A stretch of DNA of 64,000 nt from Acidithiobacillus sp. (GTDB lineage: Bacteria; Pseudomonadota; Gammaproteobacteria; Acidithiobacillales; Acidithiobacillaceae). Shown here piece after piece: positions 3,470 to 62,272 of the stretch; within the stretch, counting starts at the first letter, position 1, and every line of letters starts with the position of its first letter. The notes under the pieces were generated by a model that ran no database searches, was not told where the DNA came from, and worked only from the letters and a program-made list of their open reading frames with translations. The DNA is taken from NCBI GenBank assembly GCA_028697715.1, contig JAQVDS010000012.1, positions 1 through 64,000 on the forward strand, read 5' to 3'. Position numbers and translations under genes: made by a program.

Positions 3470-3970
3470 TCAGGCGATACGTTCGGCCTTTTCGATCACC
3501 ACGGCTTCCTTGGGGACATCCTGGTGCATCCCGTGGTTGCCGGTGGCTACCTTGGCAATGGCGTCGACCACTTCCATCCCGGAAGTGACCTTGCCGAAGA
3601 CGGCATAGCCCCAGCCGCTGCCGGAAGCGGAACGGAAGTTGAGAAAATCGTTGTCCACGAGGTTGATGAAGAACTGCGCCGTGGCCGAGTGCGGATCGTT
3701 GGTGCGTGCCATGGCCAAAGTGCCGCGCTCATTTTTCAGGCCATTTTCCGCCTCGTTCTTGATCGCATCGTGGGTATTTTTCTGCTGCATTTTCTCGGTG
3801 AAACCGCCGCCCTGAATCATGAAACCTGGGATCACGCGATGGAAGATGGTCCCATCAAAGAAACCTTCGTCGACATATTGCAAGAAGTTGGCGACGGTCT
3901 TTGGGGCCTTGGCGTCATCCAGTTCGATCTGAATGTCGCCGTGATTGGTGTGCAGTACGACTTGTTCCAT
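3470..3970 (-). CDS. ppiB: Peptidyl-prolyl cis-trans isomerase, cyclophilin type
   Basis: 166 residues, standard size for cytoplasmic cyclophilin B, with no signal peptide. The catalytic block '[14 protein letters not shown]' contains the active-site Arg, and 'AQFFIN' and '[14 protein letters not shown]' are further cyclophilin signatures. It speeds proline isomerisation during folding. First gene of a likely two-gene operon with lpxH, which starts 3 nt downstream. The divergent region to its right carries the promoter of the TonB-dependent receptor. Confidence 0.95.
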
Positions 3971-50925: not shown

Positions 50926-51002
50926 GCGCGGTTAGCTCAGCTGGATAGAGCGTTGGCCTCCGAAGCCAAAGGTCACAGGTTCGAATCCTGTATCGCGCGC
51001 CA
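50926..51002 (+). tRNA. tRNA-Arg (CCG)
   Basis: 77 nt with encoded CCA. Acceptor GCGCGGT pairs with ATCGCGC (one G-T), D arm 'AGCTCAG', anticodon stem TTGGC/GCCAA around loop CTCCGAA giving anticodon CCG, and a T arm with GTTCGAATC. It reads CGG. Its 3' end is the probable attachment site of the island that begins right after it. Confidence 0.97.
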
Positions 51003-51048
51003 TATAAATCAATAAGTTGTAGAGATTTCGGGCCAGCTGTTGGAAGTT

Positions 51049-51088
51049 TGTGTCCGAAATGTGTCCATTCTGTGTCCCCGTTGTGCCC
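51049..51088. repeat. Four phased 11-bp direct repeats next to the tRNA
   Basis: TGTGTCC at 51049, 51060 and 51071 and TGTGCCC at 51082, each exactly 11 bp apart, one helical turn. They begin 47 bp after the tRNA. Best explained as arm-type integrase or excisionase binding sites at the left attachment region; not proven. Confidence 0.7.
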
Positions 51089-51187
51089 ATTGAATTCCCT
51101 CCTCTCATCAATCCTGCCCAGAATGACCATTAGCGTCAGTGTCCACTGGCTTGGTTTCAAGTGGGAATGAATTTGCCATACGCGGGT

Positions 51188-51421
51188 TCATCTCTGAGTT
51201 TCATCCGGGATGTGCTCAAGCAACTCTCCCACGCTACACCTGAGGAAGGCGCATATTTTATCTATGTTGTCTGTAGTAGTGTTGTATCCGCGTTGATTTG
51301 CAATTTTTGAAAGGGTGGTACGGTGGATTCCTGTCGCCGAGGCCATCTCCTCCAGAGTGATCCTTCTTCCTGACTGGAACTCTCGGTCGGCAAGTAGGGA
51401 CTTGAGATGAATACGAATCAT
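51188..51421 (-). CDS. XRE-type HTH repressor of the island
   Basis: 77 residues from the ATG at 51421, which has GAAGGG upstream; longer frames exist. A compact Cro/CI-like HTH: 'ITLEEMASATGIHRTTLSKI' and 'NIDKICAFLRCSVGELLEH'. It is divergent from the excisionase-integrase operon and probably represses it, as in many integrative elements. Regulatory target inferred from position. Confidence 0.78.
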   Translation of the reverse strand: MIRIHLKSLLADREFQSGRRITLEEMASATGIHRTTLSKIANQRGYNTTTDNIDKICAFLRCSVGELLEHIPDETQR

Positions 51422-51563
51422 GCGAGAACCCTTCGGAGCCAGAGCGTCAATTGACGCACAGAAGCTACCATAGTCGAGAGGCTTCATCAAAATCGCTTGA
51501 CATCGTGCCTGTGAAGAATAGAATGTCATATACACGCTACGTTAGATGTATGGAGGCATCATC

Positions 51564-51809
51564 ATGAGCAACCTTACCTATGTGACGACTGAGGAACTCT
51601 CTCAAAAGATCAAATACGATTGTAGGACAATCAGGAATCGGTTAAAGGACTCCGTCCTTTTGGAAGGAATCCATTATATCAGGCCATTTGGTGGTCGGAA
51701 AATACTTTATATCTGGGAAAGGATTGAAGAAGATATGGTAAAGGTGTCATCTCAATCAAACTTTGATATTCCTTTGGCAAGAGGAGGTGTTTGCCATGGG
51801 AAGTATTAA
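51564..51809 (+). CDS. Excisionase-like small DNA-binding protein
   Basis: 81 residues from the ATG at 51564 with GGAGG seven nt before. 'YVTTEELSQKIKYDCRTIRN' reads as a winged-helix start, with 'FGGRKILYIW' as the wing strand. Small proteins of this shape precede DUF3596-type integrases in many proteobacterial elements and act as, or resemble, excisionases. Overlaps the integrase start by 14 nt. Confidence 0.65.
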   Translation: MSNLTYVTTEELSQKIKYDCRTIRNRLKDSVLLEGIHYIRPFGGRKILYIWERIEEDMVKVSSQSNFDIPLARGGVCHGKY

Positions 51810-53007
51810 AAATAGGCCTGAGACTGGAAACCTATTTTTTGATTTCCGGTACTGTGGAAAAAGATATAGAGAGCAAACTCTTCTCAAAGACACCCCAGCG
51901 AATCGCAAGAAGATGCAGAAGGTTCTTGATCGCATCGAGGAGGAAATTTCCCTGGGAACCTTTGAGTATGCGAGGTATTTTCCAAACAGCAAGTCCCTTG
52001 CGAGGCTGGATAAGCCTCGCCAGGAGCCCAAACGGGCTATTGATGCGTCGGCAGCAGAGAACGAGACTCCCTTCTTTGTGGAGTTTGGTCTTCAATGGCT
52101 GGAGGAGATGCGCATTCAGTGGCGCAACACGCAGATCAAAACGGTGACGGGCACGCTGGAGAAATACCTGAACCCAGCTTTCGGGAAGAAAAGGGTTGGC
52201 CTCATCACCAAGAGAGAAATCATGGAGTTTCGGTCGGACCTCGCCAAAGTCCCCGGCCGAAAGGGAAAGAAGCTGTCTGCCTCTCGTATCAACCATATTC
52301 TCACACCCCTGCGGATGATCCTCAATGAGGCGGCCAACCGGTATGAGTTTACCTCGCCCTACCATGGAATTAAAAGCCTCAAGGTTCCTCGTACGATCGT
52401 CGAGCCGTTTTCCCTGGAGGAAGTCGAGCTGATCCTGAGTACGGTGCGAAAGGATTTTCGCAACTACTTTCTGATCCGTTTTTTCACCGGACTACGAACG
52501 AGCGAGATCGATGGCTTGCGCTGGGAGAAGGTGGATCTCGAGCGACGACAGATTCTCGTGCATGAGGCCCTGGTCAACGGAGAGGTGGTGGAAACCAAGA
52601 ACGATGGTTCCTTCCGCACGGTGGAAATGTCCCTTCCGGTTTACCAAGCATTTCTGGACCAATACGAGCATACAGGGAAGGGGAACTACGTGTTTTGTAC
52701 TCGGGAGGGCACTCCCTTGCGACATGACAATGTAACGAACCGAGTCTGGTACCCGCTCTTGCGGTACTTGGGTCTCAAACGAAGGCGGCCCTATCAAACC
52801 CGCCACACTGCCGCCACGTTGTGGCTTGCTTCGGGAGAGAGCCCGGAGTGGATTGCTCGTCAAATGGGGCATACCACGACGGAGATGCTCTTCCGAACGT
52901 ACTCACGCTATGTACCCAATCTGACTCGCAAAGATGGATCCGCCATGGAACGGCTGCTGTTGTCGCGCCTGGCCAATGGGGCGGTGGGGGAGGGGGACAA
53001 TGAATAA
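51796..53007 (+). CDS. int: Tyrosine integrase (DUF3596 arm-binding type)
   Basis: 403 residues from the ATG at 51796 with GAGGAGGTG upstream. The N-terminal 'GSIKNRPETGNLFFDFRYCG' start and 'TLLKDTPANRKKM' match the DUF3596 arm-DNA-binding domain, then a SAM-like core-binding domain and the catalytic domain: Arg in 'TGLRTSEIDGLRW', Arg in 'YQTRHTAATLWL' (Tyr in place of the usual first His, common in this subfamily), His in 'QMGHTTTEML' and the nucleophile in 'RTYSRY'. It probably integrates the island at tRNA-Arg. The next gene overlaps its stop. Confidence 0.92.
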   Translation: MGSIKNRPETGNLFFDFRYCGKRYREQTLLKDTPANRKKMQKVLDRIEEEISLGTFEYARYFPNSKSLARLDKPRQEPKRAIDASAAENETPFFVEFGLQWLEEMRIQWRNTQIKTVTGTLEKYLNPAFGKKRVGLITKREIMEFRSDLAKVPGRKGKKLSASRINHILTPLRMILNEAANRYEFTSPYHGIKSLKVPRTIVEPFSLEEVELILSTVRKDFRNYFLIRFFTGLRTSEIDGLRWEKVDLERRQILVHEALVNGEVVETKNDGSFRTVEMSLPVYQAFLDQYEHTGKGNYVFCTREGTPLRHDNVTNRVWYPLLRYLGLKRRRPYQTRHTAATLWLASGESPEWIARQMGHTTTEMLFRTYSRYVPNLTRKDGSAMERLLLSRLANGAVGEGDNE

Positions 53008-53305
53008 TCTCTCACCGGCCTACGAACAACGCAGGGACGAGCAAAAGCCAGCTGCCCGAGGAAAGCAGTCATCTGTTCTGGGGCGGCTCGCGGCAGCATT
53101 GGCGGCGACGTTTTCACTACCAGAACCAGAAACGCTCGCAGATCTTCTTGAGGTCCCGGCAGAAGAGGATATCTCCTCTCTGCTAGAGGCGTGGATCGCC
53201 AAGTGCCTGCTGGACCTTGATGAGGCGCAAGCTACGCAGTTTCTGCCCATGTTGGTGGCGCGCCTGGACCGACTGTTGACAAATGGGAGGGCCCATGAAG
53301 AATGA
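53000..53305 (+). CDS. Small island protein of unknown function
   Basis: 101 residues from an ATG overlapping the integrase stop by 8 nt, with a GAGGGGGA site. Mostly helical, with an Ala-rich stretch ('LGRLAAALAATFSL') and an acidic region ('EVPAEEDISSLLEAW'). Not recognised. Its last 11 nt overlap the HD-protein start, so it is translated as part of the same operon. Confidence 0.65.
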   Translation: MNNLSPAYEQRRDEQKPAARGKQSSVLGRLAAALAATFSLPEPETLADLLEVPAEEDISSLLEAWIAKCLLDLDEAQATQFLPMLVARLDRLLTNGRAHEE

Positions 53306-54233
53306 TCTGCGGCGGGTATTGTATGTTCTGCGCCACCTTCGGGCAGGCGTCAGCCGGATTGGACAACCCTATTGTGCTTGCGAGCTCCTTGAGCCCGGAG
53401 GAATGATTTGGTCGGCCTATTGGTGGCAGAGATTTCCGCACCCTGGCTTGTGGCCTGATGGGATTGAGGTCTTGGCGACGGTTCGCCCTCGTCGATTAGG
53501 AGAGCGCTGGCTGCTGGATATTGAGTCGCTTGGTGTGGCCGCGCTAGGAGTTTCTTCGTGCGGCGTAGATCTCCCTTTTCCTGGGTGGTTGTTACCGTTG
53601 ACTACGCAGCCACGGTTACTACGCGAGCTGTGGGCGCAGATCCTTTTTCTGCGTGATCCCTGGCTGCGAAGATTCAATCAGCGCATTCTGCATGATCCCG
53701 ACATCAGTGTTCGCTGGGTAGAGATTCCCGCAAGCCAGCGGCATCACCATGCGGAACCCGCTGGTTTGCTTCGTCACAGCGTAGAGGCAGTGCGGTTACT
53801 CAGCAAAAGTCCGCAGATGTCGCAGCAAGAATGGGAAATCGCGCGTACTGCTTTACTGTGGCACGACGTGGGAAAGATCCTGGCTTATCAAGGGCAGCCG
53901 AGGCGACATGCGGAGGGATTTCTGGTGCAGCATGAGTTGGCCACGGTAGAGGTTTTGGCTCCACATCTGGCCTGGTTACGGCAACATGCCCCAGACTTGG
54001 TGACTGCGCTGAAGCTGCACTGGCATACCCCATACCGAGGTCGCCCGCTCATGCCCGGCCGGATCTTGGTAGAAGCATGCGACCGGACAAGTGCCGCTCT
54101 GGATAGTCGGGAGCAGGTGTTTCGCGGGGAACCCGAATGGCGGCAACTGGGACAAATGGAAGGGCCTGGTCCCATGACGCGGTATTGGCGATTGCGCACA
54201 CCCGTACCACTGCTGGAGATCGATTCACCGTAA
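53295..54233 (+). CDS. TraI_2-like HD-domain protein
   Basis: 312 residues from the ATG at 53295 after GGGAGG. An N-terminal region of about 140 residues of unknown fold is followed by 'ASQRHHHAEPAGLLRHSVEAV' pattern (from about residue 152) and 'TALLWHDVGKILAY', which together give the metal ligands of an HD phosphohydrolase, in the arrangement of the TraI_2 region of MobH-type relaxases. It lacks the rest of a relaxase. A nuclease or phosphohydrolase acting in element transfer or recombination is possible. Ends 62 bp before the 892-residue gene. Confidence 0.65.
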   Translation: MKNDLRRVLYVLRHLRAGVSRIGQPYCACELLEPGGMIWSAYWWQRFPHPGLWPDGIEVLATVRPRRLGERWLLDIESLGVAALGVSSCGVDLPFPGWLLPLTTQPRLLRELWAQILFLRDPWLRRFNQRILHDPDISVRWVEIPASQRHHHAEPAGLLRHSVEAVRLLSKSPQMSQQEWEIARTALLWHDVGKILAYQGQPRRHAEGFLVQHELATVEVLAPHLAWLRQHAPDLVTALKLHWHTPYRGRPLMPGRILVEACDRTSAALDSREQVFRGEPEWRQLGQMEGPGPMTRYWRLRTPVPLLEIDSP

Positions 54234-54295
54234 TGTGTACACTGCATCGACATGATGCCAGAGGTTCTAGGAATATTGCCCCATAGGAAAGTCCA

Positions 54296-56974
54296 TTGAC
54301 TACCTCGGATGAGTTGACAGGACGCAGCCGTAAGATCCGCGGACTTTTGCCTCCTGCGGAATGCCAGGAATTCGTTCTTTTTTGGGATGGGCTCAGGGCA
54401 GACGCCACCGTATCCGATACAGCCATGCTCACAATGTTTCGTGATCTTGGGGTATATGGGCACTTAACAGAACTCGGAACTATTGCCCTTAATCTCCGGC
54501 AGATACTGGATCTGGTGATGGATCGCGCCGGTTGGGAGTACTCAGATCTAATGATGGATTGGCCTCCGTTAGTTGACTGGATTCTTCGTCATCCATCCCT
54601 TCTGCCGCAACCGAAGTATACGCGCGGGACTGCAGATAAGAATCCATTGGTATATCTCTGTGCGACCAGTCACCCGCTCTATACCCTGCTCTGGACTGAT
54701 ACGGATCCCAATCAACTTGAGGAGTTGCGTCTTCTGCAAGCGCATGCGCTGATTGCTCATCTGATTCAGGTAAGGATGCACGATGATCACCACTATGATT
54801 ACCTGGCAGCAAAAAAGGCTCCTTACGCAGAAGTTATTGCAAATACGTATCGGATGAGTGTTGCTATTCGCGAGATATCTCAGATTTCTTCGCCAATACG
54901 GCCTGAAGACTTGCGGCCCGATCGCCCACCGGAGCAGTTTGCGGAGCAGATGTATTTGGTAAGCCAAGAGCTTCAGAAAAAAACTGCAAAAAAGAAGCAA
55001 TCTTCGGACTCTGCCACTGGGGAGGGAGACGTGGAGTCTCTTGATGATTCTGACGGTCTCCCTGACCTTTTCCGTCAAGCGAGCATGCCCACGCGCACGC
55101 ATTTGCAAGGATTGTCCTATGCTTTGGCAGAAACCTATGCGTTGCGCTCGCGTGGGCATCGTAGCCGCACGAAGGGAAGAGCAAGAGATCGGCGAACCAT
55201 CCATGGTTATCTGCCACTATTAGAGCTTGCTAACGCTGATCAAAGCAAAGCTAACGATGATGACCCTGCGAGGCGGTCCGAAGCTGTACGCCGGGTGGTC
55301 GAAGCGGCCGTAAGTTTTCGCCACGATGGACGCGGAGCCAGAAAATATCAAGAAGAGTTCGACATTGATGAGGCGGAAAATTATGGCCAGGAAATGCTCG
55401 AGGTGGAGATTGGCTGTGCTTTGACGCAAGGAGGATACCCTGCCCTGCATACCCTTGCATTGCGCGGAAAAGTTCAGGCAGAGGCAGTGCAGAATCAGCT
55501 TTTCCCCTGGGATTACGATCTTCTCACCGACACGGCGGTGAAAAATCTCCTCAATACTATGCAGGAGACCTTTGAGCAGGAATTGCAGCGCACTACTCTG
55601 TCCATGACTGCCCGTCTTGTAGCATTGCTCGGTGTGATCCTGTGGACAGGCTGTAGTTTGGATGTTGCAAGAAAGCTGCGGATTATCCCTGCCGGAGAAG
55701 AAAGATGGGGTGGCGGCATGCTTGTGCTGGAGCATTGCTCCGCTACGGGTGGAGCATTCTGGAATCTTCAGGTTAGTCCTCCCAGCTATGCGCAGAGCGT
55801 GGCCAGTAGCCACGAGGCATCTGTTGATATCCAAGAGTCGGTTCTGAGGTTCCCAGATGTTGCAGGGGGGAGTCGGTATTTTCTGCAACTGCGGGAAAGG
55901 TACCCAGAGTGGGATTGCACGTTTCCCCGCCCGGAAAAGTTGCAGAAGCCTTTGCGGCGGTACCTAAAAATGGTGGATCCCAGCGGTTATCTGACCATCA
56001 GCAAGATCGAGGATTATTTATGGCGACACCTGGTGCTCCACGGAGACCTCGCTGAAGCGGATCTTCTCGTAGGTAAGCGCCACTACCTTTCTCAAGTGCG
56101 AAGATACTACACGGCGCTGCCCGTTGCTGTGTTGGAACGGCGCTATGTCGCCGTAGTGGAGCAACTGCAACGGGATATAGGGCTGCAGAAGGTGGCAGAG
56201 ACGGACTTAGTTTCCCCGGCTAGCAAATATGTCGGCGCCGCCTATCGACCTACTTTGGTTGCGGTGCAACGTGCAGTTCATACTTTGCAGGATCGGTTGC
56301 AGGAGTCGGAAGGAGAGTGGGAATCAAAGGGCTTGGCTTCTGATCGTGTAAAACTGCAGCTTTGGCAAAAGTATTACAATCTCTACACGGTGTATACTTG
56401 GTTTTATTTTGCCTATGCCACTGCGGCGCGGGCAACCTGCAACACCTTGCCCCATGATCCAAGCTTCCCGCTCCATGAGGGATTTATCGCGTACTCGGAT
56501 AAAACAACGGCTGATCAGTCGCACGTTCGCTTGGTTTGGCTGCCGGAAGCGTTGGCACGTCAATTGGCAATGCAACGCCTTCTTGCTGAAGAGTCGTGGG
56601 ACATTAGGGCCCGGAACACTCGCGTAGAGAGGACAAACGGAAATTTCCTTTTGATCGCCAAGAGCGCCCAACCCCTATGCCCCAAAATTCTCCAGGCGCA
56701 GTTCGCTGATCTGTTTGGAGCGTTCCTGCCCGCCAATAGCCACCGACGATTTTGTCGTTCTCACCTCCTGGAAGAGGGGTGTCCGGCCGAAGTTGTCGAT
56801 GCCTTTATGGGCCACTGGTTTGCCGGGGAGTCCTCTTGGAGTCGCTACTCCAGCCAGTCGGCATTGACCTATTTGCAGGAGCTGCAGCCCTATCTTCTGC
56901 GCATGTTGGATGCCCTGCAGTTTCGGTATATTCCGCTGGGGCTTCGTAAATTGTCGCATGGCCAGGAACGATGA
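54296..56974 (+). CDS. Giant recombinase-like protein (892 residues)
   Basis: TTG start with AGGAAA five nt upstream. About 700 residues of unrecognised, mostly helical sequence with a Lys/Ser/Asp-rich linker around 230-255 precede a C-terminal part resembling a tyrosine recombinase: Arg712 in 'TAARATCNT', a possible Lys736, His816-Arg817-Arg818 in 'SHRRFCRSHLLEEG', Gly-His840 and Tyr851 in 'WSRYSS'. The spacing fits the catalytic fold but the H-x-x-R motif is altered, so activity is uncertain. Overlaps the next giant gene by 17 nt. It may be a partner subunit of that protein, as TnpB is to TnpA in Tn554-type systems. Confidence 0.6.
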   Translation: MTTSDELTGRSRKIRGLLPPAECQEFVLFWDGLRADATVSDTAMLTMFRDLGVYGHLTELGTIALNLRQILDLVMDRAGWEYSDLMMDWPPLVDWILRHPSLLPQPKYTRGTADKNPLVYLCATSHPLYTLLWTDTDPNQLEELRLLQAHALIAHLIQVRMHDDHHYDYLAAKKAPYAEVIANTYRMSVAIREISQISSPIRPEDLRPDRPPEQFAEQMYLVSQELQKKTAKKKQSSDSATGEGDVESLDDSDGLPDLFRQASMPTRTHLQGLSYALAETYALRSRGHRSRTKGRARDRRTIHGYLPLLELANADQSKANDDDPARRSEAVRRVVEAAVSFRHDGRGARKYQEEFDIDEAENYGQEMLEVEIGCALTQGGYPALHTLALRGKVQAEAVQNQLFPWDYDLLTDTAVKNLLNTMQETFEQELQRTTLSMTARLVALLGVILWTGCSLDVARKLRIIPAGEERWGGGMLVLEHCSATGGAFWNLQVSPPSYAQSVASSHEASVDIQESVLRFPDVAGGSRYFLQLRERYPEWDCTFPRPEKLQKPLRRYLKMVDPSGYLTISKIEDYLWRHLVLHGDLAEADLLVGKRHYLSQVRRYYTALPVAVLERRYVAVVEQLQRDIGLQKVAETDLVSPASKYVGAAYRPTLVAVQRAVHTLQDRLQESEGEWESKGLASDRVKLQLWQKYYNLYTVYTWFYFAYATAARATCNTLPHDPSFPLHEGFIAYSDKTTADQSHVRLVWLPEALARQLAMQRLLAEESWDIRARNTRVERTNGNFLLIAKSAQPLCPKILQAQFADLFGAFLPANSHRRFCRSHLLEEGCPAEVVDAFMGHWFAGESSWSRYSSQSALTYLQELQPYLLRMLDALQFRYIPLGLRKLSHGQER

Positions 56975-59900
56975 TGAAATCGTCTTTCAGGAGACGGCGC
57001 GTGGCCTCTGGGACGAACTATTAGCCACGCCTGGAGTCCGGCGCGGCAGCAGATTGTTTTCCGAGCAAGAGAGGCAGGCCTACAGAGCCTGGTTGGTAGG
57101 AGAAATTGTCGAGGCCAAGAAAGGAAGATCCCAAGAGGCTGCTGCCCAGGCTTACCCCGGTTTTTTGGAATCCCTCTGTGGTGACCGAAGCCACAATGTA
57201 CAAGACGAAATCACCCGAGAGGCGCTTAGTCGTCTTTTGCATGATCGGGTGCTGGCTGCCTTTGACGTGGAAGAGTGGAGTGATTCCCGAAGGCCGATGC
57301 CGGCCAAGAAGGACTTGAAGTCTCGGTTGCCAGATGCAGCGAAGTTTTTACAGTTTTTGAGTCTTCTCATTCGTCGGGGTAACGCCGAAGGCCTGTGGCA
57401 ATGGTGTCCTCCGTCCGTACCAATGCTCTTGGCGCGGGAACCAACGCCATTCACGCCGGAGGGAATGCGGGGATACCGCTACGTCCAGATTGCCCGGAAA
57501 ACCTTTTGGATAGACCTGCAACGGTCCACTAAACTCGAGGGAATTACCGCGGAAGGCCGTATTCTGGTGAGCGCGTTGCTCTATGGTGGATTGGCGGATA
57601 TCGGTGCGTTGCGAGAGCTGTTGAGGTCGCTGCGGCGGTCCACAACTGTCACGTATCTCTCTCGCGCGGGGATCTCCTATCTGGAGTTGGAGCTTCCACT
57701 GGGACGAAGTGGTCGGCGTCTGCGCCGTTGGTTCCCAGATCCTCTGTCGGAGATTCTGATATTGCGTTATCGGTTTTCAGGGGATGCCTCCGAAACGGTC
57801 ACTCAAAAAAACGTGCTGGAAGCCATGGATGCCTATCTGCATAGCCTTCCCAAATGGGAGGGAAAATACCTGCGAGCTAGGTCTTTGTTGCGGTGGATCC
57901 CACAAACTCTGCGAATCGAACTTCCCCAGTTTCTTGGCGCCTATGCCACGGGCACTCTTCTCGCACACGCGGTTCGCCCTGACAGGTGGCTGCAACTTCA
58001 CGGTCACCGAGCCACAACGACTAGCGACTTGTGCTTGGCAGAAGATGCTATCTTGCGAGAGACGCCTCCAACTGCTGCGGTCACCGAGGTTCGGGAGGCT
58101 TTGCAATCCGTGCCGTGGCTCATCAATTTGCGTAAGATATTGCGGGAGACGGACCGTCGTGTCGTGATCAAAGCATTAGCGGATGCACGGGTGGTGGGGT
58201 TCTCTGAACCATTAAGCCAAATGTTCTACGAATGGGCGGAACATCTTTTCAAGCATGGCTCTGCTTACCGGCATCGTCTGAGCCTGCGTACCATCCGGCG
58301 ATATGTGAGTCGTCTGGCAGCGCTGATGCTACAAATGTTGGAGCCCCCCTCCTCGATTGAGACGTTTGGGGATGCCTCGTGGCGACAATTATATGAGGAT
58401 CTGCTCGACTCAGTAGAGACGGAACACCAGCGCGCCTTGGTGGCGAGAGCGATTCGTGAGTGGCACCAGTACCTGGTGGAAAAGAAAGATGCTAGCCCTA
58501 TCCCCGATCAGCAGCTGAGCAGTTTGACCGTAGACGTTGTACCCGATGCCCGTATTCTCGGCATGAACGAGTTTGAGCAGGTAAAAACGGAGATTGCCAG
58601 AGGTGCCCACGTTGAAAGGCATGTGCAGTTGCCAACGGTCTTGACGCTGGTTGCGATTTTGGGATTCCGTTGTGGGCTGCGGCGAATGGAAGCCCTTCGG
58701 CTGCGGCTCACGGATTGTCACCTGGAGGGTGTCAGAGCAACCCTCCTGATCCGCCCGTTTGCAGAGCGCTCGCTCAAAAGCCGCAATGCAACTAGGGCCA
58801 TTCCCGTCCACGCGCTGTTGGAGCCGCAAGAGTTACAACTCTTGCGCGAATGGGTGCAACTCCGCAGAAAATCAGGTTCTCCGCCGGAGGGCTACGTATT
58901 TGTGCTGGAGGAGATTGGCCACAATCCGATTTCCCAGGAGATGGCGATGTCTCGCATTCACGAGGCCTTGCGAACAGTCACTGGCGACCCATTGATGCAT
59001 TTCCATCATTTGCGTCACAGCTTTGCATCTCATTTGCTGTGGCGATTGAGTTTGGCGCAAGTACCCGTGGACGCAACGCCAGCCGTATTTTTTGAGGAAC
59101 GAGAGGCTGCGGGTCAGCTCTATCAACATCTCTTTGGCCACAGCAGAAGCAGCCGCAAGCTCCTCTATGCCCTGACGAGTCTCTTGGGGCACTCAGGACC
59201 GGAGGTCAGCGCACAACATTACGTCCACAACCTGGACCTCATCCTCTTCGTGCATCTCCAGGATCGGATTCCCAAAGACGTGCACTCTTGGTGCGCCTTT
59301 GCTCACGAGATCCCGCAGTCGTCACTGTATCGGATTTGGAAAAATAACGGGATGGGAGGGATCGTTGATCGAATTCGACAAGCCTACGTGCAGCGGGTGA
59401 AGATTCCAGAAATTTGGATGCCGGATCCGGAGGGAAAAGTTCAGAAGCGACGTCGCCTGTTTGTTGATCCACTTCCGCTTGAGGATCTGTGGCGAATTTT
59501 ACGGCTTGGATTACTTGCCGACGCTACATCCCTGGGATTAGAAGAAAGTGCTCTGTGGGATCAGCTGTCGGAGGAATACGGTTTGAGTGCAGCACAATTG
59601 CAAGCGATGGCGTCCAAGGCGAAGTGGATATACGCGCTGCGAGGAAATATGGGACTTCGCCATCACGCGATGAAGCTGACTGGAGCAGGGGGTGAAGTAT
59701 CGCTGGCGTTGCCAGCCAAGATGCGAACCAAGCCGGATCTGGCGGTTTACGAACAGTTGGTACCGTTTTTTTGGAAGAGTATCGAGAAGGATCCGCGGCT
59801 GGTTGCGGAAGTTTTGGATAAATACCTTGTGCAAGCATGGGCCAGCCACCCAGGATATTTTTTAGGAAAATCTCCAGATAAACCGGAAGACGTGATGGCA

Positions 59901-60188
59901 TTCCGAGAGCTACTTTTCGACTGGGGTGTCAAGCCAGGACAAGTTGCTTATGTAAGTTATGATCCCGCAGAGAGGTCGGTTTGGCGTTCCCGCTGGAGGC
60001 TGGCACTCCATTTGCATAAAGGTATCACTGTGGAAATCAGATCTCTTCCAGAACACCAGAGAGCTGGTGAATGGCTCCATGTGTACCCAAGATTTTTGAA
60101 GGAAGGGAAGACGCAGGCTGCAGCTGCTTCACCAGGATTCACTTATTTGCTAGTCATGGCTGCAATTTTTCTTGCGGGAAAGATATAG
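56958..60188 (+). CDS. Giant tyrosine recombinase (1076 residues)
   Basis: Starts at an ATG inside the end of the preceding gene. About 570 residues of unrecognised N-terminal sequence, then a full tyrosine-recombinase core: Arg575 in 'RCGLRRMEALRL', His683-x-x-Arg686 in 'HHLRHSFASHLL', His745 in 'LLGHSGPEV' and Tyr755 in 'AQHYVH'. A further 320 residues follow the nucleophile, an unusual C-terminal extension containing 'LGLSAAQLQAMASKAKW'-type helices. Ordinary integrases are 300-450 residues. Catalysis looks intact. Last gene of the island operon; no terminator is obvious. Confidence 0.78.
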   Translation: MARNDDEIVFQETARGLWDELLATPGVRRGSRLFSEQERQAYRAWLVGEIVEAKKGRSQEAAAQAYPGFLESLCGDRSHNVQDEITREALSRLLHDRVLAAFDVEEWSDSRRPMPAKKDLKSRLPDAAKFLQFLSLLIRRGNAEGLWQWCPPSVPMLLAREPTPFTPEGMRGYRYVQIARKTFWIDLQRSTKLEGITAEGRILVSALLYGGLADIGALRELLRSLRRSTTVTYLSRAGISYLELELPLGRSGRRLRRWFPDPLSEILILRYRFSGDASETVTQKNVLEAMDAYLHSLPKWEGKYLRARSLLRWIPQTLRIELPQFLGAYATGTLLAHAVRPDRWLQLHGHRATTTSDLCLAEDAILRETPPTAAVTEVREALQSVPWLINLRKILRETDRRVVIKALADARVVGFSEPLSQMFYEWAEHLFKHGSAYRHRLSLRTIRRYVSRLAALMLQMLEPPSSIETFGDASWRQLYEDLLDSVETEHQRALVARAIREWHQYLVEKKDASPIPDQQLSSLTVDVVPDARILGMNEFEQVKTEIARGAHVERHVQLPTVLTLVAILGFRCGLRRMEALRLRLTDCHLEGVRATLLIRPFAERSLKSRNATRAIPVHALLEPQELQLLREWVQLRRKSGSPPEGYVFVLEEIGHNPISQEMAMSRIHEALRTVTGDPLMHFHHLRHSFASHLLWRLSLAQVPVDATPAVFFEEREAAGQLYQHLFGHSRSSRKLLYALTSLLGHSGPEVSAQHYVHNLDLILFVHLQDRIPKDVHSWCAFAHEIPQSSLYRIWKNNGMGGIVDRIRQAYVQRVKIPEIWMPDPEGKVQKRRRLFVDPLPLEDLWRILRLGLLADATSLGLEESALWDQLSEEYGLSAAQLQAMASKAKWIYALRGNMGLRHHAMKLTGAGGEVSLALPAKMRTKPDLAVYEQLVPFFWKSIEKDPRLVAEVLDKYLVQAWASHPGYFLGKSPDKPEDVMAFRELLFDWGVKPGQVAYVSYDPAERSVWRSRWRLALHLHKGITVEIRSLPEHQRAGEWLHVYPRFLKEGKTQAAAASPGFTYLLVMAAIFLAGKI

Positions 60189-60274
60189 CGGCATTGTGGC
60201 CGAACATCGCAGGTAAATGCTTTGTAAGCTAATACTTCAGGAGATCTCTCGATATTACGAAGAGCGATCTTGAG

Positions 60275-60988: not shown

Positions 60989-61951
60989 TCAGTTTAAGCT
61001 AGTACTGACGTCTTCATTCGCAGCGGATTGGCGCTGCCCCACGTCTTCCTTGGCGACCTTTTGGTCCGCTTTGGGATACTTGTCCACGATACAGGCACCA
61101 CCGCCCTGCCCAGTCCGATAAACGAGATCAGGAGTGGCGTAGCCCAGCGATTGATGGGGGCGAAGGGTATTGTAGCGCTCGAAATAATCGGTAAGCCCGA
61201 TCAGTAATTCCGGCACTCCCGCATAGGCCTTCAGATAGATGTCCTCATACTTCAAGGATCGCCACAAGCGCTCCACAAAGACATTGTCCAAGGCTCGGCC
61301 ACGACCGTCCATGCTGATTTGCACATCATGGGATTTGAGTACGCCGACGAAGGCCTCGCTGGTAAACTGGCTGCCCTGATCAGAATTGAAGATCTCCGGG
61401 ACTCCGTAACGCTGTAACGCTTCTTCCAGGCAATCGACACAAAAGGGCGTATCCATTGTGTTGCTGATTCTCCAGCTCAAGACCTCACGGCTGTACCAGT
61501 CCATGATGGCGACCAGGTAGACAAACCCCTGCTTCAGCCGAACATACGTGATGTCCGTGCTCCACACCTGCCCAGGCCGCTCAATCACCAAGCCCCGCAG
61601 TAGATAGGGATAGACCTTGTGCTCGGGGTGCGGCTTGCTAGTATGTGGCCCTGGCGGCATGCCCGCGAGACCCATCTGGCGCATCAACCGTTGCACCCGT
61701 TTTCGATTGACCAAGAAGCCCTTTTTCCGCAAGCACACCGTCATCCTGCGGCTCCCCAAATAGGGGGTATTCGTATACAAGGCGTCGGTGGCGTTCATGA
61801 TCTCTACATCCTCCCCGTTGGGCTCCGTCGCTTTCCGTTGAGCATACACCGTGGCTCTGGCCACACCCGCCAGCTCACATTGCCGACGCAGGGGAATTTG
61901 ACAGTGCGGCACAATCCAGCCCCTGCGCACTTCTAATGGGAAAGTCCGGAC
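60989..61951 (-). CDS. IS3-family transposase OrfB (DDE catalytic part)
   Basis: 320 residues in the frame entered after the slippery run. rve integrase core with DDE residues: Asp in 'STDITYVRLKQGF', Asp in 'NSDQGSQFTSEAF' and Glu in 'DNVFVERLWRSLKYEDIY'; HTH_21-like 'YLGSRRMTVCLRKKGFLVNR' precedes it. The frame stays open upstream to 62119, so the true protein is the OrfAB fusion made by -1 frameshifting. No inactivating stop is seen, so the element may still be mobile. Confidence 0.92.
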   Translation of the reverse strand, partial: VRTFPLEVRRGWIVPHCQIPLRRQCELAGVARATVYAQRKATEPNGEDVEIMNATDALYTNTPYLGSRRMTVCLRKKGFLVNRKRVQRLMRQMGLAGMPPGPHTSKPHPEHKVYPYLLRGLVIERPGQVWSTDITYVRLKQGFVYLVAIMDWYSREVLSWRISNTMDTPFCVDCLEEALQRYGVPEIFNSDQGSQFTSEAFVGVLKSHDVQISMDGRGRALDNVFVERLWRSLKYEDIYLKAYAGVPELLIGLTDYFERYNTLRPHQSLGYATPDLVYRTGQGGGACIVDKYPKADQKVAKEDVGQRQSAANEDVSTSLN

Positions 61952-62225
61952 TTTTTTTGAGCCAATCCAGCTCGACTTTGAGACGCCCAATCTCGCTGTA
62001 CAGGCGATCCGGATCACTCCGGGCATCCAGCGGCTGCGGTCCTCTTTTCCCTTCAAACAACGTCCCTGCGAGATCCTGAATGGCCTTCTTCCACTGCGCC
62101 ACCTGAGAAGGATGCACACCTTGCTCCTGCGCGATCTCGTTTACCGTCTTCAGCCCACGGATGGCCTCCAGACCGACCTTCGCCTTGAAGGCTGGACTAT
62201 ACACATTCCTCTTTACCACACTCAT
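61875..62225 (-). CDS. IS3-family OrfA (HTH protein)
   Basis: 116 residues from the ATG at 62225. Helix-turn-helix 'NEIAQEQGVHPSQVAQWKK' binds the IS ends, followed by a leucine-zipper-like stretch ('LYSEIGRLKVELDWLKK'). The run of seven A followed by G (minus strand, 61958-61951) sits right after 'DWLK' and is the expected -1 slippage site to make OrfAB. Overlaps the orfB frame. Confidence 0.9.
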   Translation of the reverse strand: MSVVKRNVYSPAFKAKVGLEAIRGLKTVNEIAQEQGVHPSQVAQWKKAIQDLAGTLFEGKRGPQPLDARSDPDRLYSEIGRLKVELDWLKKSPDFPIRSAQGLDCAALSNSPASAM

Positions 62226-62272
62226 CGTCTTCTCCGTGCCAGACGATAGCTTAAACCTCTGTCTCAAATCCG

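Follow-up and report, generated by a model that had tools for sequence, protein, structure and literature searches.

Mobile elements with several tyrosine recombinases are few (Tn554, RIT, GInt, SE and GMT), and why more than one such enzyme is needed is an open question. Gamma-mobile-trio (GMT) elements are defence-rich. The locus described here, an Acidithiobacillus island in which a tRNA integrase (Int) lies upstream of a pair of giant proteins (892 and 1076 residues), resembles them in combining a recombinase with a partner of about 900 residues and a small protein. However, GmtY has only 441 residues, and the island pair has no similarity to GmtY or to its 908-aa neighbor. The comparison used a genuine GMT locus in genome G141, where GmtY scores 508 bits against NF040693 and the 908-aa gene next to it was taken as GmtZ. 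None of the 403-, 892- and 1076-aa proteins gave an NCBIfam match to GmtY (NF040693) at E<=1, hmmsearch with alignments of the two giant families (A1 and A3) against the G141 locus returned nothing at E<=10, and hhalign gave probabilities below 3% for the 908-aa gene and showed no similarity to GmtY. A preliminary description of this DNA had doubted that known trios fit, and for the gamma-mobile-trio that doubt was justified.

GInt elements (ginABCD) carry three consecutive integrases and a small protein, the four genes lying in a 5.8-kb fragment (PMC5385486). As in GInt, three tyrosine-recombinase-type proteins, one of them degenerate, are accompanied by a small protein in a site-specific island with variable cargo. 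The two are set apart by layout. Unlike the consecutive ginABC, Int here forms part of a module of its own, equipped with a repressor and an AlpA-like factor; the 101-aa and HD genes stand between it and the pair, elsewhere Int and the pair are convergent, and the island pair alone spans 5.9 kb. The degeneracy also differs, since the 892-aa protein has lost His and Tyr and kept the first Arg. GInt ends are imperfect direct repeats of 10-17 nt; here the tRNA 3' end is repeated on contig C26, with an unproven contig link.

Strand-biased circularizing integrative elements (SE) carry intA-tfp-intB-srap at the left end between inverted repeats (PMC10214605). They share with this locus two RHRY-motif recombinases and a further protein of recombinase fold that lacks the motif, but the gene order and set differ, and Acinetobacter relatives of the pair have no inverted copy of their left terminus within about 6 kb. 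As regards Tn554 (TnpA, TnpB) and RIT (RitABC), NCBIfam gives only weak Xer-type matches. Integrative mobilizable elements with MobH have in common with the island a tRNA site, an Arm-DNA-bind_2 integrase, an AlpA-like factor and a TraI_2/HD domain; unlike them, the island has an HD protein that consists of the N-terminal domain only and falls far below the MobH cut-off, and the giant pair is extra. Judged against a limited search of the open-access literature, the pair looks like an undescribed gene-moving system. We propose, at about even probability, that the locus is a mobile genomic island with two recombination modules, a conventional tRNA integrase module and a heteromeric giant-pair module, and that it represents a new family of multi-recombinase islands.

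The tRNA-Arg site and the integrase module

The window, meaning the whole 64,000-nucleotide stretch analyzed, covers positions 1-64000 of the 68121 positions of contig C54, in a genome of 2.46 Mb. Its features are listed in the table.

Features of the tRNA-Arg island, with positions in the window
Feature	Position	Strand	Basis or remark
tRNA-Arg (CCG)	50926..51002	+	intact; ARAGORN and Rfam; 3' part is the probable attachment site (attL)
Four direct 7-mers TGTG[T/C]CC	51049..51088 (starts 51049, 51060, 51071, 51082)	+	exact 11-bp spacing
XRE/Cro-type HTH repressor	51188..51535	-	Pfam HTH_26, E 7e-15
AlpA-like candidate excisionase / directionality factor	51546..51809	+	no profile hit
Tyrosine integrase Int (P0004), 403 aa	51796..53007	+	Arm-DNA-bind_2 and Phage_integrase, Pfam E 8e-25 and 6e-18
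101-aa protein after integrase	53000..53305	+	no profile hit
Stand-alone TraI_2/HD protein (P0003), 316 aa	53283..54233	+	motifs PASxxHHH...HDxGK; Pfam TraI_2 27.9 bits (cut-off 23.9)
892-aa degenerate tyrosine-recombinase-like protein (P0001)	54296..56974	+	TTG start; alignment A3 and profile alignment
1076-aa tyrosine recombinase (P0002)	56958..60188	+	Pfam Phage_integrase E 7e-12, residues 565-694
IS3-type transposase pair	60989-62267	-	orfA-like 61875-62267, orfB-like 60989-62119; by eye from ORFs; later insertion, right side

The ORF list confirms the five plus-strand genes from Int to the 1076-aa recombinase in a single run, just as they had been described, and the run does sit downstream of tRNA-Arg. 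Int overlaps the 101-aa gene by 8 bp, that gene overlaps the HD gene by 23 bp, and the two giant genes overlap by 17 bp, which suggests operons. The XRE repressor, the AlpA-like excisionase candidate and the four phased 7-mers after the tRNA had been missed. XRE genes occupy the same place in several related islands, and by eye proteins resembling the AlpA-like one precede the integrase in L022, L025 and L154. The integrase motifs are present in Int. The 101-aa protein belongs to a weakly conserved small family found after Int in several islands, and the HD protein reaches 29 bits against NCBIfam MobH (cut-off 200).

At the tRNA-Arg gene the G+C content drops from about 0.60 to 0.45-0.57. The 7-mers that follow are candidate arm-type sites of the integrase. 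After the same tRNA, HP-2 and Acidithiobacillus montserratensis GG1-14 have phased arrays of equal spacing and other letters (counted), and A. sulfurivorans RW2 has a phased array of CGTGACC at the same place (by eye); equal phasing with other letters in three Acidithiobacillus islands is as expected of integrase arm sites. The tRNA-Arg 3' part has one further copy in the genome, on contig C26, where positions 1-131, at the end of the contig, hold a partial tRNA-Arg gene and, behind it, TGTGTCC repeats phased at 11 bp. This partial gene may be the right border or may belong to a second island of the same type. With an integrase beside a tRNA gene whose 3' end recurs, on another contig, the locus qualifies as a tRNA-targeting integrative island, the border itself being unproven. 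The site is a hotspot, because genome G007, which is 96% identical at rlmE, has the same tRNA-Arg followed by different DNA, and the tRNA end recurs there 20 kb further along. That 20-kb insertion (G007:C1:1956691-1977150) lacks the giant pair.

The preliminary description had called the island cargo-free and placed its right border at 60274. Neither proposal is supported, since the IS3 copy and accessory genes come after the pair, the region runs on, and the other tRNA 3'-end copy lies on C26. Read by eye, C54 60989-68121 contains the IS3 copy and then DODA dioxygenase, YceI, WrbA and HxlR-type genes, with a TIR-domain-like protein at 66037-66693. The best copies of the stretch after 60188 elsewhere in the genus are only 73-85% identical, compared with 96% at rlmE; since IS3 and accessory genes follow and the genus relatives are this distant, the island probably continues past 60188, and the stretch from IS3 to the HxlR-type and TIR genes is probably island cargo.

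Flanking repeats were also sought around other islands. In G045, 23 bp directly repeated around the island were rejected as att sites: the XRE gene contains one copy, and the second adjoins a CRISPR-like array (L096 13600-15700), where the 23 bp adjoining the CRISPR-like repeats match the island's XRE gene. A 15-bp repeat match around Int and the pair in G273 was judged to be chance, and no att-like repeats were found around Int and the pair in G141, G084 or G055.

The giant pair and its association with the integrase

Of the three genes that the preliminary description had counted as tyrosine-recombinase-like, those for Int and the 1076-aa protein are clear cases; the 892-aa protein is only a degenerate relative. 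In the 1076-aa protein the full catalytic set is present (R575 K607 H683 R686 H745 Y755), and these residues are kept in nine relatives in alignment A1, except for the histidine in some. The 892-aa protein has no significant profile match (Pfam E 0.12). In a profile alignment of 20 relatives, every member that spans R712, K736, R817 and H840 keeps them. The histidine of HxxR is replaced, mostly by Asn, and the tyrosine is found in only 6 of the 20, the others having F, L, H, T, G, A, V or N in its place. With the HxxR histidine gone, and the tyrosine gone in most lineages, the 892-aa protein is probably a catalytically impaired partner. A CKS match in it (22 bits, cut-off 27) was taken as chance. 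AlphaFold models of both giants from four-sequence alignments (pLDDT 39) were set aside as too poor. Both giants are under purifying selection, with dN/dS of 0.14-0.36.

Three Acidithiobacillus genomes have the same gene order at the tRNA-Arg beside rlmE, with identities of 70-81% for Int, 58-60% for the HD protein, 38-40% for the 892-aa protein and 42-43% for the 1076-aa protein; the 101-aa gene was recognized in only one of the three. A contig profile search with alignment A4 recovered only three Acidithiobacillus loci, and a contig search with the 1076-aa protein alone gave no related loci. Pair relatives were absent from the viral contigs and phages searched.

Class and phylum surveys used one genome per species, drafts included. 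Among 369 genomes of the class, the 1076-aa family was present in 9 (E<=1e-20), the 892-aa family in 13 (E<=1e-8) and the integrase type (at least 47% identity) in 13. The 892-aa family and the integrase type share a genome in 9 cases against 0.5 expected, a hypergeometric p of 1.5e-12 for which the unit is the genome rather than the independent event. The phylum survey found the 1076-aa family in 22 of 398 genomes; over class and phylum the pair occurs in about 2-6% of sampled genomes.

Fifteen of the phylum loci were read. An intact 892-aa type lies directly upstream of the 1076-aa type in 11; one locus is fused, at another the only 892-type match is weak and falls within the same ORF, a third has a short fragment, and at the last no 892-aa type was detected. 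Fusion of the giants into single ORFs of ~1280-1860 residues is found in several lineages (L061, L027, L063, L096, L098, L166). Across Proteobacteria, the 892- and 1076-aa genes almost always occur together, side by side or fused. The integrase (50-64% identity) lies within 1.2 kb in 5 of the 15 loci, in one case with the HD gene as well.

Int and the pair occur within 5 kb of each other in 14 genomes (G000, G008, G015, G018, G045, G055, G084, G141, G273, G488, G568, G690, G706 and G771), some with the HD gene, so the co-occurrence on which the preliminary description had made its proposal depend was indeed found. At several loci an XRE-AlpA-Int-small(-HD) module and a module of a small gene followed by the two giants abut at the 3' end of the second giant gene, convergent or in line. 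BLAST shows no likeness among the small genes that precede the pair. G200 and G298 carry the Int-HD module but lack the pair, and in G251 the module and the pair are on separate contigs. Many Acinetobacter plasmids and several chromosomal loci have the pair without this integrase subfamily, and the pair is thus not obligately tied to the integrase.

Plasmid relatives and alternative explanations

A tblastn search of 72,556 plasmids gave matches in 125 records, of which 122 are Acinetobacter. The core genes of GR13 Acinetobacter plasmids include a recombinase gene, 'tyr13' (PMC9455709), and the GR13 plasmid pDETAB5 carries an 892/1076-type pair. Two divergent types were found: a trio-type block with the pair after a 154-aa gene (224 matching records) and a fused type with one ORF after a ~224-aa gene (65 records). 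The pair block has a sharp left end, TAATAACAGAAAACTAAAAAAAAGTGG or ATAAAGTTAGTAAATAAATTATATAAATC, some 165 or 140 bp ahead of the first gene, and the DNA upstream of it is unrelated. On the right side, AAATAGCCTAAGC is an exact mark in both types, at the recombinase stop codon or 215-356 bp past it (L028, L029, L132-L137, L139, L027); with one mismatch allowed, about 0.3 hits are expected by chance over all loci together. The genes after the pair vary and include BREX, a DUF4011 protein and ATP-binding proteins.

These plasmid data are explained equally well by the main rival to our two-module proposal, in which the pair, together with a small gene that frequently precedes it, forms an independent multi-recombinase element. 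Such an element would have nested repeatedly beside a common tRNA integrase and would move itself and its cargo without needing Int. We regard this as a substantial possibility, if one short of even probability. The stand-alone occurrence of the pair on Acinetobacter plasmids, in a block whose left end is sharp, favors an autonomous unit, and the number of block records, the variable and often defensive DNA after the pair and the absence of Int relatives from L026-L030 point the same way. So do diverged copies of the left terminus upstream of the block, which form direct repeats around neighboring HipBA and Fic modules. Against it, random nesting hardly explains why, in unrelated genomes, the pair is found time and again next to a single integrase subfamily, closely spaced and with the 3' ends abutting. 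This association argues for a functional partnership. In addition, the right terminus of such an element is unproven, no circular form was found, and the window lacks the small gene in front of the pair.

A second alternative is that the pair, carried as cargo, serves to maintain DNA or to act against mobile elements, for example by dimer resolution or by defense through recombination. The pair is common on large plasmids and adjoins BREX, CBASS-like, Wadjet-like, type I restriction and toxin-antitoxin genes. However, the pair has no PADLOC match and no effector domain was found, while the sharp left terminus and the tight association with the integrase point to mobility, making this explanation improbable. 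That the giants are decaying integrase remnants, together by chance, would fit the partly missing active site of the 892-aa protein, but is contradicted by the purifying selection on both, the gene order and fusions conserved over a phylum and the integrase association, and deserves almost no credence.

Some further observations concern the DNA around the pair. In the Acinetobacter relatives, the left-terminus direct repeats that delimit the HipBA and Fic-YhfG modules lie at 1433, 4033 and 5991 in L132 and at 3817 and 6016 in L139. Such repeats look as if cargo had been added stepwise. In genome G055 (L025, L104, L105), CBASS-like and Wadjet-like gene clusters flank the pair island (by eye). 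HP-2 and RW2 have different cargo between the HD gene and the pair; the two islands become homologous again ~40 bp upstream of the 892-aa gene.

Proposed roles of the two modules

In the two-module proposal, the first module, comprising the XRE repressor, the AlpA-like factor, Int, the small protein and the TraI_2/HD protein, would carry out integration and excision at the tRNA-Arg 3' end, with the AlpA-like protein as the directionality factor for Int. The HD protein may serve mobilization, in the manner of a reduced MobH relaxase.

The giant pair would constitute the second module. The 1076-aa protein is predicted to cleave and rejoin DNA through Tyr755, and the 892-aa protein may be its catalytically impaired partner, binding DNA or the second half-site. 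Together they would perform a second recombination reaction, most likely the movement or capture of DNA just upstream of their own operon, by which the island and its plasmid relatives would gain variable, often defensive cargo. Cargo capture is suggested by one comparison of two islands, HP-2 and RW2, and by the repeats in the plasmid relatives. The full proposal, a giant heteromeric recombinase with an active and an impaired subunit that is present in a few percent of sampled proteobacterial genomes, inserts and accumulates cargo, often defense genes, beside its own operon and works with a conventional tRNA integrase, is tentative, and we consider it less likely than not.

An ordinary integrase stands here apart from a pair in which, in most lineages, one partner lacks the nucleophile, and a division of labor among multiple recombinases is therefore directly testable. 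The frequency of the pair among genomes and its common neighborhood of defense genes add to this testability.
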